Source: an uncultured Cetobacterium sp. (GTDB taxonomy: Bacteria > Fusobacteriota > Fusobacteriia > Fusobacteriales > Fusobacteriaceae). From it: 40,250 bases of DNA. How positions within the stretch are numbered: the stretch's first letter is position 1; each line of letters starts with the position of its first letter. Below are positions 34,939 to 40,250 of the stretch, piece after piece. A program made the translations under genes and the position numbers. The stretch covers positions 1 to 40,250 of the forward strand of contig CASFCG010000022.1 of the NCBI GenBank assembly GCA_949293295.1, written 5' to 3'. The notes under the pieces are model-generated. The model was not told where the DNA came from, ran no database searches, and saw only the letters and a list, made by a program, of their open reading frames with translations.

Positions 34939-37050
34939 TTACGAATTTTGTTGTTCCTGTAATATTTTTTTTCTACTTAAACTAATCTTTCCATTTTCAA
35001 GAGATATAACTTCTACTTCAAATGTATCTCCAATCTTCAACACATCCTCTACTTTCGCTACTCTCTCTAGAGATATCTCTGATACATGTAACAACCCCTC
35101 TTTTCCCGGTAAAATCTCCATAAATGCTCCAAACTTTGTAATACTTACAACCTTACCAAGATATCTTTCATTTAACTCAACATCTTTTACATAGTAATTA
35201 ACCAACGAAATAGTTCTCTGTAAAGCTTCCATCCCTTTACAGAAAATAGTCACTTTTCCATCCTCTTCTATATCAACAGTTGCTCCAGTCTCATCAATAA
35301 TACTCTTTATATTTTTTCCAGCTGGTCCTATTAACACAGCAATCTTATCTTTTGAAATCATCATCTGATGAATTCTTGGAACCTCTGATGATATCTCATT
35401 TGATCTCTCTATAGTGCTATTCATTACCTCTAATATTTCAAGTCTTGCTGTTAAGGCTTGATTTAAAGCTATTCTCATTATTTCCTCTGAAATTCCAGTA
35501 ATTTTCATATCCATCTGTAAAGCTGTAATCCCTTTTTTCGTCCCTGCAACTTTAAAATCCATATCCCCTAAATGGTCTTCCAATCCCATTATATCTGTCA
35601 ATACAACATATTCTTCATCTTTTTTTATCAATCCCATTGCTATTCCAGCAACATGCTCTCTTATTGGAACACCTGCTGCCATTAAGGAAAGAGAACCTCC
35701 ACATATAGAAGCCTGTGAAGAGGAACCATTAGACTCCGTTATCTCTGAAACAACTCTGACCGTATATGGAAAATCCTCTTGTGAGGGCATCACATACTTC
35801 AAAGCTCTCTCAGCTAAAGAACCATGACCTAATTCTCTTCTTCCCGGTGCTCCCATTCTTCCACACTCTCCAACTGAATACGGCGGAAAATTATAATGTA
35901 AATAAAACTTTTTGTAATACTCCTCATCCAAGCCATCCACTAACTGTTCATCCTCTTTCGTTCCCAATGTTGTCGTCACTAGAGCTTGTGTTTCTCCTCT
36001 TGTGAATAATGCTGAACCGTGTACAATAGGTAAAACTCCAACTTCTGAACTCAAACTTCTTATCTCTGTTGTTTTTCTACCATCAACCCTATGTTTATGA
36101 TAAAGTATAGCATCTCTCACAAGTTCTTTCATCAAATCATGATAATACTTTTTAAACTCCAACTCCACCTCTTCTGGCATCTCTTCCTCAGAATAGTGTA
36201 TGTTTTTAAATTCCTCGATTAAAAGCTCTTCTAAACTATCCACCGCTTCTTGTCTTGCATGTTTTCCAGTTGTCAGGACAGCCTCATTCAATCTCTCTTT
36301 TCCATTATTATCAATAAAACTCTTTACCAACTCTAAAGGAAGTGGAGATGTAAATTCTATCTTTTCCTTTCCGGCTAATTTTCTAAATTCTAATTGAAAC
36401 TCACAAATCTTTTTTATATTTGAATGAGCAAACATCATAGCCTTTAACATAGTTTCTTCATCAATCTCTTTTGCTCCAGCTTCAACCATATTTATTGCAT
36501 TCATACTTCCTGCAACTGTCAAATCTAAATCACTTATCTCTAATTGTTTCGGCGTTGGATTTAATATGAACTCTCCATCTATCATACCAACAACAACCCC
36601 AGCAATTGGCTCTATAAATGGAATATCTGATATCATTAAAGCTAAAGATGACCCTATTATTCCCATAAAGTCCGGTGTAACCTCATTATCATATGATAAC
36701 ACTGTATTTACGATATGTACATCATAATTAAATCCCTCTGGAAACATTGGTCTTATTGGTCTATCTATCAATCTTGCTATCAATGTAGCATTTGTAGAGG
36801 GTCGTCCCTCTCTCTTATTGAATCCACCAGGAAACTTACCAGTAGCATAGTATTTCTCCACATAATCCACCGTCAATGGAAAAAAATCTACTCCTTCCCT
36901 TGGAGTTTTGCTTCTGTTTACTGTTGATAACACTGTAGTATTTCCACATTTAAGTATCACAGCCCCATTTGATTGACGTGCTATCTTTCCAGTTGTAGCA
37001 GTTATAATTCTTCCATTCAGTTCTAAACTTAAACTTTTCTCTTCAAACAT
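34939..37050 (-). CDS. pnp: Polyribonucleotide nucleotidyltransferase (PNPase)
   Basis: 703 residues, full length: two RNase PH domains (about 10-220 and 310-540) joined by a helical region, then KH (about 550-615, [14 protein letters not shown]) and S1 (about 620-695, [27 protein letters not shown]). Signature segments [15 protein letters not shown] and [25 protein letters not shown] are present. It degrades RNA 3' to 5' with phosphate and joins the RNA degradation machinery. It is the first gene of a long minus-strand series, with its own promoter and a structured leader. No rpsO is found upstream, where it is often located. Confidence 0.97.
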
Positions 37051-37096
37051 ATTTTCCTCCTAACTAAAGTTTTTGAGGATAAATACTGCAAATAAT

Positions 37097-37138
37097 AAGG
37101 GATTAGAACTAAGACACAAATCTTAACTTTAATCTCTT
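37097..37138 (-). promoter_or_regulatory. Stem-loop in the pnp leader
   Basis: A two-part hairpin: 9 pairs with one mismatch on the transcribed strand (37097-37105 with 37130-37138), a 4x4 internal loop, 5 pairs (37110-37114 with 37121-37125) and a six-base loop. No T run follows. In E. coli the pnp leader carries a stem cut by RNase III for autoregulation; a similar role here is an inference. Confidence 0.5.
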
Positions 37139-37175
37139 ACTACTTACTCTATATTCACCCTCATCCCACGTTTTA

Positions 37176-37204
37176 AGTATACCATTTTTAATATTAAAAA
37201 GCAA
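37176..37204 (-). promoter_or_regulatory. Promoter of pnp
   Basis: Minus-strand TTGCTT (37204-37199), 17-base spacer, TATACT (37181-37176). It gives a leader of about 118 bases that contains the stem-loop at 37097-37138. Confidence 0.7.
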
Positions 37205-37257
37205 TTTCTTATTTCTAATTAAATCGTACGTTTTTTTGTACGCTATTTAATTGTTTT

Positions 37258-37438
37258 CTAAATTTTTCCTTTTCTTTCTTCGCTATTACTATTTTTTTTA
37301 TCCATTTGCTCTAATAATTTTAATAGAGTTTCAACATTTGGGCAAGATATCCCCCTTTTTTATTTTTGCCTTAAAATGCTCACACCAATCACACACCGTT
37401 ATAATAAAGCTCATCACAAAACAAATCAATTTCATCAT
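37258..37438 (-). pseudogene. Frameshifted small membrane/Cys-rich reading frame
   Basis: On the minus strand an ATG at 37438 opens a 35-codon frame: a hydrophobic start (MKLICFVMSFIITV) then CDWCEHFKAKIKKGDILPKC and a TGA at 37333-37331. One base out of register, a frame continues from 37341 as PNVETLLKLLEQMDKK to a TAG at 37258. Together they read like one protein of about 62 residues with a CxxC pair and a further Cys next to the break, disrupted by a single-base indel. Family not recognised; a phage- or mobile-element-type remnant is possible. A separate 33-codon frame lies just upstream at 37511-37612 (minus). Confidence 0.35.
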
Positions 37439-37648
37439 TCCAGCTTATTCCATAAAATCTAGCTATTACTGCCATTTTTAATATTTTCTTTTTTTATTTG
37501 TGTATGTTTGTTATAACTTTAAAATTATAATAAACCAAGAGAAATTATTTTTTAACTTATTTGTTGAGATTCCATACTTTTCATTATATTTTAGACAAAG
37601 TTTCTCTTTCATTTTTACAGAAGAAATACAATATTAAAAAATTTTTTC

Positions 37649-37676
37649 TTGCAAAAATAAAAAAATATGTTATAAT
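37649..37676 (+). promoter_or_regulatory. Promoter of the predicted tracrRNA
   Basis: TTGCAA (37649-37654), 16-base spacer, TATAAT (37671-37676). Transcription would start near 37683. Confidence 0.7.
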
Positions 37677-37682
37677 GACATT

Positions 37683-37779
37683 GTCAAGTTGATAGATTTG
37701 ACATTATACTCAAATTTTCCAAGGCCTACTAAAATAAGGTTTTGGACCGGAATCGCTCACTTATGTGAGCTTTTTTTTA
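37683..37779 (+). ncRNA. Predicted type II-A tracrRNA
   Basis: About 97 bases from the promoter to a perfect terminator. The anti-repeat ends in CTACTAAAAT, followed directly by AAGG and a short nexus hairpin (GGT 37738-37740 with ACC 37746-37748), then CCGGAATC. The order AAAATAAGG, small nexus with CCG, AATC is what type II-A tracrRNAs show, and it resembles the S. thermophilus CRISPR1 type. The 3' end is a hairpin (37755-37760 with 37765-37770) followed by eight T. The anti-repeat predicts CRISPR repeats starting (G/A)TTTTAGTAG and, after any bulge, CCTTGGAAAA. No such repeat is seen in the window. It stands 25 bases before cas1 with no cas9 between. The call rests on motif order and context. 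Confidence 0.72.
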
Positions 37780-37803
37780 TAACTGTTATTTATGAGGTAA
37801 ATT

Positions 37804-38712
37804 ATGAGTTGGAGAATTGTTTATGTAACACAATGCGAAAGATTATCTCTCTATCTGGATAATCTGTTAATTGTAAAAGATAATGTCGAATATAAGATTC
37901 CACTTAAAGATATTGGAACAATTGTAGTGGAAGATTATAAAGCCACATTCACTATGAAAATTTTGAATAAATTTATAGAGCATAATATTCTTTTAATAAC
38001 ATGCGATGAAAAGCACAATCCATATGGGGTAATAAACTCCTTAGGACATCACAGCAGACAATATAAAATTGTCTCTAATCAAATAAAATGGAAAGATTTT
38101 GAAAAAGATATTTTATGGAAAGAGATTGTAAAAAATAAACTTCGAAATCAACTAAAAATAATGAAACTGCTTGACTGCAATGAAAAATTGTTGGATAAAA
38201 TAAAACAATATATTGAAACAGTTGAAGTTGGAGATGCAACAAACCGTGAGGGGATAGGAGCTGGAGTTTATTTCAGGGCAATTTATGGAGATGAATTTAA
38301 AAGAAAAGTAAATATCTCTGTTCAAAATAGTGCTTTAAATTATGGGTACGCTGTTTTAACTTCTAAAGTGGCAAAAATTATTGCTGGAAAAGGACTTTTA
38401 AACTATATAGGAATACACCATAAGAATGAATACAATCGGTTTAATCTAGCATGTGATGTGGTGGAGGTTTTTAGACCGATTGTTGACTATTATGTTGCAA
38501 AACACTTAAAAGAGGCGAGTTACTTTGCTAAAGAGGATAGAATAGAGCTACTAAATCTAATGAATTCTAAAATTTTATACCAAGGTAGAAAAGAGTTTTT
38601 AACCAATTGTATCGAAAAATATGTAGAAGCAATTATCAACTATTTTGAAAATGGAGAGGAGATTGAAAGCAAAATTCCGACATTAGAGGGGTTGGAATTT
38701 TATGAGTTATAA
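37804..38712 (+). CDS. cas1: CRISPR-associated Cas1, type II
   Basis: 302 residues, near the 289-305 typical of type II Cas1. It is the integrase that inserts new spacers, as a complex with Cas2. The type II pattern is clear: MSWRIVYV start, NREGIGAGVYFRAIYGDEF (about 147-165), NYGYAVL and HHKNEYNRFNLACDVVEVFRP (205-225). The metal ligands are Glu149, His206 and Glu221, all conserved. A GAGG site (37794-37797) precedes the ATG and it follows the tracrRNA terminator by only 25 bases, so it must be expressed by readthrough or a promoter inside the tracrRNA. Cas2 overlaps its end by 11 bases. In standard type II-A loci cas9 lies directly upstream; here it is missing. Confidence 0.95.
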   Translation: MSWRIVYVTQCERLSLYLDNLLIVKDNVEYKIPLKDIGTIVVEDYKATFTMKILNKFIEHNILLITCDEKHNPYGVINSLGHHSRQYKIVSNQIKWKDFEKDILWKEIVKNKLRNQLKIMKLLDCNEKLLDKIKQYIETVEVGDATNREGIGAGVYFRAIYGDEFKRKVNISVQNSALNYGYAVLTSKVAKIIAGKGLLNYIGIHHKNEYNRFNLACDVVEVFRPIVDYYVAKHLKEASYFAKEDRIELLNLMNSKILYQGRKEFLTNCIEKYVEAIINYFENGEEIESKIPTLEGLEFYEL

Positions 38713-39025
38713 ATTTATGAGATTACTAATTATGTTTGATTTACCAATGGACAACAATCAAGAAAAAAGGGAATACAGAATATTCAGAAAATTCCTGATA
38801 GAAAATGGATTTTTAATGTTACAATATTCCGTATATGTGAGAATCTGTACTAATCAAACTATGGCAAATCTATATTTAAAGAAAATAAATAATAATCTTC
38901 CAACCGATGGAAATGTTAGAGGACTTATTATAACTGAAAAACAATATGAAAAAATGAAGTTATTTTTAGGAAATAAATCTAAAAATGAGTCTATCATTAC
39001 AGACAAAAGATTAATTATATTTTGA
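38702..39025 (+). CDS. cas2: CRISPR-associated Cas2, type II
   Basis: 107 residues, usual Cas2 length. The ferredoxin-like fold starts with FMRLLIMFDLPMDNNQEKREYRIFRKFLIENGF, where Asp13 after the first strand is the conserved residue, and continues with MLQYSVYVRI. It bridges two Cas1 dimers in the integration complex. The ATG lies inside cas1 and the TGA is followed within a few bases by csn2, so all three genes form one translationally linked operon. Confidence 0.95.
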   Translation: MSYKFMRLLIMFDLPMDNNQEKREYRIFRKFLIENGFLMLQYSVYVRICTNQTMANLYLKKINNNLPTDGNVRGLIITEKQYEKMKLFLGNKSKNESIITDKRLIIF

Positions 39026-39032
39026 GGTGAGT

Positions 39033-40100
39033 ATGTATAGTATAAATGATATTTCTCAAGAAACAACTTTATTACTTAAAAAAGCTAACTATATATCTAT
39101 AATTGATGATAACAATATCTACTCCAAAGAGTTATTAATCAACATTTATAATTATTTTTCCGAACAAGATAAAAAAATCATTATTTTAAACTACTTAACT
39201 GGAGAAAAAGAGCAACTTTCATCTAAATATCCAATTTTAATTTCAGATTATGAAATTGAATCAGATATAGCACTTGGAACTAAAACACTTCTATACAAGA
39301 GATTATTGTCTTTTTTTAAGGAAAAATTTCCTATAGAGCCTACATTTTCAACCTTAAATCTCTTGATTGATGACTTTTTAGAGGAGGAAGCTTTCAAAAC
39401 GCTAAAAAAAGAGTTAACAATCCATTCAGATATCTCTTTAAAATTTAAATTTAATGAGTTTACCCCAAATGATTTAATAAAAAAAATGGAGATTAATTGT
39501 ATTGTCGGCGATGAAGAGAAAAAGTTTTATGATATCCCATATCTTGAACGTCTAAAATTTAAACTATCTCTTCACACTACACTTGAAAATAGTTTGAATA
39601 GAGAGTTTATCTATCTTTTTTATTATCCTGAAAGACTTCTGTCGACAGCAGATATAAAGGAGTTAAAAAGATTTCTAAATAATCTGATTAAAAATAATGG
39701 AGTTGTCATAGTTACAACTACTTCTAAACATCTATTAGGCGACAGTTTAGATGAAATAAATATTATTCAAAATAAAAAACTTTTAAATTTTCAAAAAAGT
39801 TATGAGTTAGAAAAATCTTATTTAATGAGCTATCCCGAAATTAAAGAGTGGAACTTCATCGGGGAGAGGCTGCTTTATCTGGTAAAAAACTATCTTCTTG
39901 AAAATATACATGATATAAAAATTACTAATAAATCAAAAAATGATATAGATGAAATCTTTCTGAAATCATATGAGGATATCTTTATACTAGTCTTTTATCT
40001 CGAAAAGATAGGTTTAAATTACAAACTAGATTTAGATTACAATGATTCCTGTGTTTTTTCTAATTATATAAAGAAAAATTTTTACTTTAAAAATTATTGA
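39033..40100 (+). CDS. csn2: Csn2-like adaptation protein, long form
   Basis: 355 residues from the ATG at 39033, five bases after a GAGG site. A GTG at 39027 overlaps that site and is less likely as a start. The long form (about 350 residues, as in S. thermophilus CRISPR1) fits better than the short form (about 220). The N-terminal half alternates strands and helices like the degenerate P-loop core of Csn2, and EFIYLFYYPERLLSTADIKELKRF... VVIVTTTSKHLL (about 205-250) resembles the central Csn2 segment. No Walker motif is visible, as expected. Csn2 rings bind DNA ends and act with Cas1, Cas2 and Cas9 in spacer acquisition. The identification depends strongly on position after cas2, with moderate sequence support. 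Confidence 0.8.
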   Translation: MYSINDISQETTLLLKKANYISIIDDNNIYSKELLINIYNYFSEQDKKIIILNYLTGEKEQLSSKYPILISDYEIESDIALGTKTLLYKRLLSFFKEKFPIEPTFSTLNLLIDDFLEEEAFKTLKKELTIHSDISLKFKFNEFTPNDLIKKMEINCIVGDEEKKFYDIPYLERLKFKLSLHTTLENSLNREFIYLFYYPERLLSTADIKELKRFLNNLIKNNGVVIVTTTSKHLLGDSLDEINIIQNKKLLNFQKSYELEKSYLMSYPEIKEWNFIGERLLYLVKNYLLENIHDIKITNKSKNDIDEIFLKSYEDIFILVFYLEKIGLNYKLDLDYNDSCVFSNYIKKNFYFKNY

Positions 40101-40123: not shown

Positions 40124-40153
40124 AAAAAGAGTAGAACTCTATCTACTCTTTTT
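40124..40153. terminator. Bidirectional terminator after csn2
   Basis: A perfect 12-bp stem (40124-40135 with 40142-40153) around a six-base loop, with A run and T run on opposite sides. It separates csn2 from the converging chaperone-like gene. No CRISPR repeat lies between csn2 and this hairpin. Confidence 0.9.
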
Positions 40154-40157
40154 CAAT

Positions 40158-40250
40158 CTACTCCCCAACGTAGTTCTGTTTTATCCTAAACAGCTTATTC
40201 ACATTCACACTATTCTCTTTCGCTTTCTTTTTTATTAGCTCCTTTATCTC
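40158..40250 (-). CDS. C-terminus of a second chaperone-like protein (partial)
   Basis: The last 30 codons and a TAG stop are in the window; the gene continues beyond the right edge. The peptide ends NKLFRIKQNYVGE and is identical to the C-terminus of the 122-residue protein at 1360-1728 at 23 of 30 positions. The two coding segments agree at 68 of 90 bases. This copy ends many codons in G or C (GAG, GTG, CTG, AAC, TAC) where the left copy uses A or T, so its recent history differs. It is in opposite orientation to the left copy. Confidence 0.7.
   Translation of the reverse strand, partial: EIKELIKKKAKENSVNVNKLFRIKQNYVGE

Follow-up and report, generated by a model that had tools for sequence, protein, structure and literature searches.

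A type II-A-derived CRISPR adaptation module with its tracrRNA, found without cas9 or an array in a draft Cetobacterium sp. genome

The type II-A CRISPR systems that resemble CRISPR1 of S. thermophilus combine a compact Cas9 with a long Csn2 of about 350 residues (Csn2b; PMC3936727). A tracrRNA encoded between cas9 and cas1 is known from Bifidobacterium merycicum, where it lies on the minus strand (PMC4521832), and adaptation genes that serve an array in trans have a precedent in Flavobacterium columnare, in which the Cas1 of a II-C locus serves a VI-B array (PMC8092290). Our comparison set of 96 genomes of the order Fusobacteriales holds four loci that are closest to the one described here, in Fusobacterium mortiferum An814 (G023; L042, L079, NZ_JACSNP010000001.1) and in genomes G029, G065 and G076. 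All four have the order cas9-tracrRNA-cas1-cas2-csn2-array, with the tracrRNA in a gap of roughly 150 bp between cas9 and cas1, a Cas9 of 1091–1106 residues where the gene is unbroken (a contig break falls inside cas9 of G076) and an array of 36-nt repeats to the right of csn2.

The window, by which we mean the whole stretch of DNA analysed, is one entire contig (C22, 40,250 bp) of the draft assembly of a Cetobacterium sp. At its right end, about 430 bp with no intact gene separate pnp, on the minus strand, from a promoter with its tracrRNA; cas1, cas2 and csn2 come next, then a hairpin and the end of a convergent gene, and the contig stops 150 bp past csn2. The features are as follows.

37200–37648, no strand assigned: expected place of cas9; holds no remnant of that gene, shows no homology to the region upstream of pnp in congeners and contains a broken small gene
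37250–37478, minus strand: broken small gene (MAVIARFYGISWNDEIDLFCDELYY...), frameshifted, between pnp and the tracrRNA
37649–37676, plus strand: tracrRNA promoter, with a −35 box TTGCAA (37649–37654), a 16-nt spacer, TG and a −10 box TATAAT (37671–37676)
37684–37778, plus strand: predicted tracrRNA, with a 5' hairpin, anti-repeat, nexus and terminator with a T run
37700–37735, plus strand: anti-repeat; the repeat expected to pair with it has the form GTTTTAGTACCTTGGAAAATTTGAGTATAAT and is a prediction, not an observed sequence
37755–37770, plus strand: tracrRNA terminator stem-loop; the letters of the stem differ from those of the relatives and the pairing is kept
37804–38712, plus strand: type II cas1, 302 residues, intact (TIGR03639, 284 bits against a cut-off of 120)
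38702–39025, plus strand: cas2, 107 residues, intact (TIGR01573, 80 against a cut-off of 24.5)
39033–40100, plus strand: long-form csn2, 355 residues from the ATG at 39033 (357 from the GTG at 39027), intact
40128–40152, no strand assigned: hairpin between csn2 and the convergent gene, read directly from the sequence
40158–40250, minus strand: last 30 codons of the convergent gene, cut by the contig end

The three protein-coding genes had been named correctly in the initial annotation. Besides the two family models that cas1 and cas2 pass, the best PADLOC models for them are Cas1_II and Cas2_II, and csn2 is recognized by the PADLOC Csn2 model (E 1.3e-21, residues 12–348), with no match in Pfam or NCBIfam and none in sequence between the long Csn2 and solved structures. 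Gene order and overlaps are those of the four relatives, to which Cas1 is 53–55% and Cas2 78–81% identical; csn2 aligns end to end with its counterparts at 32–36% identity, and this comparison makes the ATG at 39033 the more likely start. Aligned with the solved S. thermophilus Cas1, the protein keeps E149, H206 and E221, the catalytic positions. By Csn2 length and layout, the module and its relatives resemble the long-Csn2 (Csn2b), CRISPR1-like branch of II-A (PMC3936727), from which the window differs in having neither cas9 nor an array. Nothing firm pointed to relaxed selection on the module: Cas1 has more unique changes than two of the four relatives (38 to 16, p 0.004; 38 to 20, p 0.025) but shows no such excess over the other two, Cas2 has none, and pnp places the whole Cetobacterium sp. 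lineage on a long branch.

The promoter and the tracrRNA-like RNA with its anti-repeat and terminator, also read from the sequence at the outset, were confirmed. The RNA, the start of which is an estimate based on the −10 box, folds from about position 37684 with −26.5 kcal/mol (z −4.1 against shuffles). Duplexes of its anti-repeat with the real repeats found in the four relatives have energies of −21.1 to −27.7 kcal/mol, and the best pairing of each relative's tracrRNA is with its own repeat, one repeat being common to G029 and G076. The five homologous tracrRNAs can be aligned throughout and share the identical core stretches CCTACTAAAATAAGG and ACCGGAATC; a covariance model of them matched 5 of the 96 genomes, namely the Cetobacterium sp. 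(E 4.5e-16) and the four with a close cas1, and, as the model was built from these same five RNAs, its contribution is the lack of matches in the remaining genomes. Terminator-like sites number 3, including 37755–37770, against 0.7 expected, whereas promoter-like sites are not in excess (23 in the sequence and 20.5 in shuffles). The repeat proposed initially (...TTTTAGTAG...) came near and was slightly off, since the relatives' repeats read GTTTTAGTACCTTG... and the extra bases form a bulge in the anti-repeat. All five tracrRNAs also begin with a hairpin (window 37684–37706; same place in L042, L043, L089 and L090) whose 3' arm extends into the start of the anti-repeat. Across the five, the stem differs in its letters and largely keeps its pairing, and the hairpin may be a candidate for protection of the 5' end or for a switch against repeat pairing.

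The position of cas9 in these loci changes how the window is to be read. The initial annotation took cas9 normally to lie between the tracrRNA and cas1 and placed a possible deletion there, which is wrong for this branch: the four relatives have cas9 to the left of the tracrRNA, and the interval between their tracrRNA and cas1, corresponding to 37780–37803, never held it. Because the relatives share the order cas9-tracrRNA-cas1-cas2-csn2-array, the tracrRNA of the window lies just where it should, and what is missing is cas9 to the left and the array to the right.

Neither cas9 nor a CRISPR-like array is present in the window, the region after csn2 included, as had been stated from the start; the largest listed frame is pnp, with 703 residues. 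The search was extended to the readable part of the Cetobacterium sp. assembly, which leaves aside three contigs (C10, C13 and C26, 6.6 kb together) that read as N only. No Cas9 was found there by the family model, by a close Cas9 query or by a profile of two Cas9s, which does detect the protein in 16 further genomes of the order. When the pattern of the predicted repeat was searched for, the anti-repeat itself and chance-level matches were all that came up, and about 160 kb of sequence from contig ends and C16 held no array. The genome-wide search proposed initially for cas9 and matching arrays thus yielded neither in the readable assembly.

Set against the order, this is a singular arrangement. 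Of 20 genomes among the 96 with this kind of Cas1, 15 have Cas9, four carry Cas13a loci and the Cetobacterium sp. has neither; in the 16 genomes whose type II Cas1 is not beside Cas13a, cas9 is missing only here. The four Cas13a (VI-A) loci, of Leptotrichiaceae (L046, L050, L051 and L052), are like the window in having a type II-like cas1 and cas2 without cas9. They differ in that Cas13a adjoins cas1 and an array is present, and their Cas1 is only 34–36% identical to that of the window, where a Cas9-type tracrRNA and csn2 are found instead. No match to Cas13a was found in the window or in contig ends, no frame of the window exceeds 703 residues, and with no Cas13a adjoining cas1 the locus was not taken for type VI-A. 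Since cas9 is absent from the locus, we do not class it as a working II-A system either; the most fitting description is that of an adaptation module derived from II-A and accompanied by its tracrRNA. A literature search found no published cas9-free II-A module, which is weak evidence, as most journals lay outside its reach.

The flanks indicate where the locus was altered. On the left, the untranslated leader of pnp, which is long and conserved across the genus (window 37050–37200; L066–L075), is homologous to that of congeners up to about 37,200, and beyond this point the FtsW/RodA-like gene that lies upstream of pnp in the 10 congeners with a readable flank is replaced; nor was that gene found in the Cetobacterium sp. 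assembly, with a query that had no positive control. The end of the leader homology and the absence of the FtsW-like gene therefore place a rearrangement breakpoint between pnp and the tracrRNA. Homology to the CRISPR relatives stops at the −35 box, which in those relatives follows immediately on the stop codon of cas9, and tblastn with the Cas9s of G023, G029, G065 and G024 detected no Cas9 remnant at 37050–37650. On the right, only about 30 bp separate the csn2 stop from the leader and first repeat in G023 and G029; at this place the window has the hairpin and another gene. The convergent gene has no match in phages, plasmids or PHROGs, and the 20-residue match of the broken gene at 37250–37478 to a phage hypothetical protein is too weak to be of use. 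A phage origin of the module was set aside, as no Csn2 was found in phages and viral contigs contained no repeat, tracrRNA core or relative of this Cas1, and so was a plasmid origin, the best plasmid Cas1 being that of Ilyobacter polytropus, with 37%.

None of 11 congeners has this cas1 or tracrRNA, so the system was either gained by the Cetobacterium sp. lineage or lost by the others. Elsewhere in the same genome, beside six tRNA genes on contig C16 (193 kb), lies a dead fragment of a second, sister type II cas1 (C16:84738–84899; L011:14775–14876, minus strand) with in-frame stops, whose closest relative is the cas1 of the window (75% DNA identity over 96 bp); 21 of 35 residues are like the window Cas1, against 10–14 like others. 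This dead sister shows that such loci decay in the Cetobacterium sp. genome and that this cas1 lineage belongs there.

The sister fragment bears on the possibility that the arrangement is an artefact of assembly or binning, in which the end of a CRISPR locus was misjoined to pnp or a complete locus was cut or collapsed. Such an error would fit with the metagenome-like character of the draft assembly, with the loss of synteny at the junction (about 37200) and with a contig that stops 150 bp past csn2. However, the dead fragment closest to the window cas1 sits on a large contig of the same genome, which argues against a chimera. Several other contig ends of the assembly overlap by exactly 141 bp, so that sequence of about this length would have to be shared for a chimera to form, and the AT-rich junction has no shared copy in the contig ends looked at. 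We therefore consider an artefact unlikely. Many contig ends of this assembly also carry a dispersed, MITE-like repeat that measures about 170 bp and has inverted ends (GTGTCTATCTGGGGTATACCCC ... GGGTATACTCTATTTAGACAC, mirrored; copies at L098 1–180, L099 1–180, L104, L106, L130, L133 and L142). At the opposite end of the window, a large open frame (2–1339) is cut by the contig end, and a diverged paralogue of it (70% DNA identity over 125 bp) lies at the end of contig C9 (L132).

A second explanation supposes that the system still works in two parts: a rearrangement would have separated the module from a cas9 and an array that lie in an unassembled, unbinned or unreadable part of the genome, and the module would act in trans. 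Arrays tend to break short-read assemblies. The present one amounts to 1.175 Mb in 26 contigs and is 82.8% complete, with three N-only contigs, so a hidden locus has room. The best argument for this explanation is the combination of intact genes with clean edges, to which the intact promoter and the changed terminator stem with its pairing kept may be added, and the joint absence of cas9 and the FtsW/RodA-like gene is what one rearrangement with both beyond its breakpoints, in unassembled sequence, would leave. Against this, cas9 and the array must both fall in the missing part, the search for the FtsW gene had no control of its own, and no split II-A locus occurs in the other 15 cas9-bearing genomes, the case of G076 being a contig break inside cas9 only. 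Unlike the II-C locus of F. columnare, which serves a known second locus, the module has no partner locus that we could find. We regard a split, working system as possible, at less than even odds, and place it next after the amputation described below, from which the data set it apart only loosely. The suggestion that cas9 and the array lie elsewhere thus survives as one of the leading explanations, with neither found in the readable assembly.

Another suggestion of the initial annotation, that the module has a different role, gained no positive support. The genes and the RNA are intact, type II-like Cas1s beside Cas13a in four Leptotrichiaceae genomes imply that such Cas1s change partners, and the F. 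columnare case would be a model for feeding another CRISPR type in trans. Cas1, Cas2 and Csn2 assemble on DNA without Cas9 (PMC6620040); the same paper, citing Heler 2015 and Wei 2015, nevertheless states that II-A acquisition in cells requires Cas9. A kept anti-repeat, moreover, makes sense only with a type II crRNA, and the 96 genomes contain no second cas9-less case and hence no sign of a lineage that maintains the module. A module retained for another role or for a different effector is very unlikely. The same holds for a II-A module that does stably without cas9, its Cas1-Cas2-Csn2 and tracrRNA working in trans for a distant array or different effector or having some other DNA-handling role.

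Our preferred reading, to which we give a probability of roughly 0.45, is that of a recently amputated II-A locus that lost cas9 and the array on two sides. What remains would be the middle piece of a CRISPR1-like locus with a compact Cas9 of about 1100 residues, a tracrRNA between cas9 and cas1 and a Csn2 of about 350 residues. One event between pnp and the promoter of the tracrRNA, either a rearrangement or a deletion, would have taken cas9 together with the FtsW-like neighbour, and a second change past csn2 the leader and the array. The earlier proposal that cas9 was lost thus remains a leading explanation, with its site moved out of the gap between the tracrRNA and cas1. The remaining piece is expected still to be transcribed and to yield a tracrRNA, a Cas1-Cas2 integrase and Csn2. 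Spacer integration requires a leader and a repeat. The piece alone lacks an array that could receive spacers, a crRNA partner for the tracrRNA and a Cas9 to select the PAM, so it would not be expected to immunise the cell, and the locus is probably inert.

The data show the parts, their homology and the order in which they natively stand, and they show that the readable assembly contains neither cas9 nor repeats. We infer that cas9 and the array have been lost from the genome and are not merely unassembled, and the loss was probably recent, since all frames and the RNA are intact. Amputation draws its best support from the dead sister of cas1 and from the array being missing altogether. Against it stand the roughly 17% of the genome that lies outside the assembly, the N-only contigs and the right end of C22, for which no overlap with any readable contig end was found, so that the loss is not proven; the three intact genes and RNA and the clean left edge at the −35 box are also more than random erosion usually leaves.

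Taken together, these data make a separated locus, produced by rearrangement or deletion, the most likely interpretation, rather than a new kind of system. If it is mere decay in a draft genome, it has little import, except that a tracrRNA directly left of cas1 is normal in this branch. If cas9 and the array are elsewhere, it would be a rare case of a II-A locus split in nature. If cas9 is truly absent, the Cetobacterium sp., whose genome looks reduced beside the 2.1–3.1 Mb of well-assembled congeners, would have a natural Cas1-Cas2-Csn2-tracrRNA set without an effector, with which one could study what II-A adaptation does in the absence of Cas9 and how CRISPR systems come apart in shrinking genomes.
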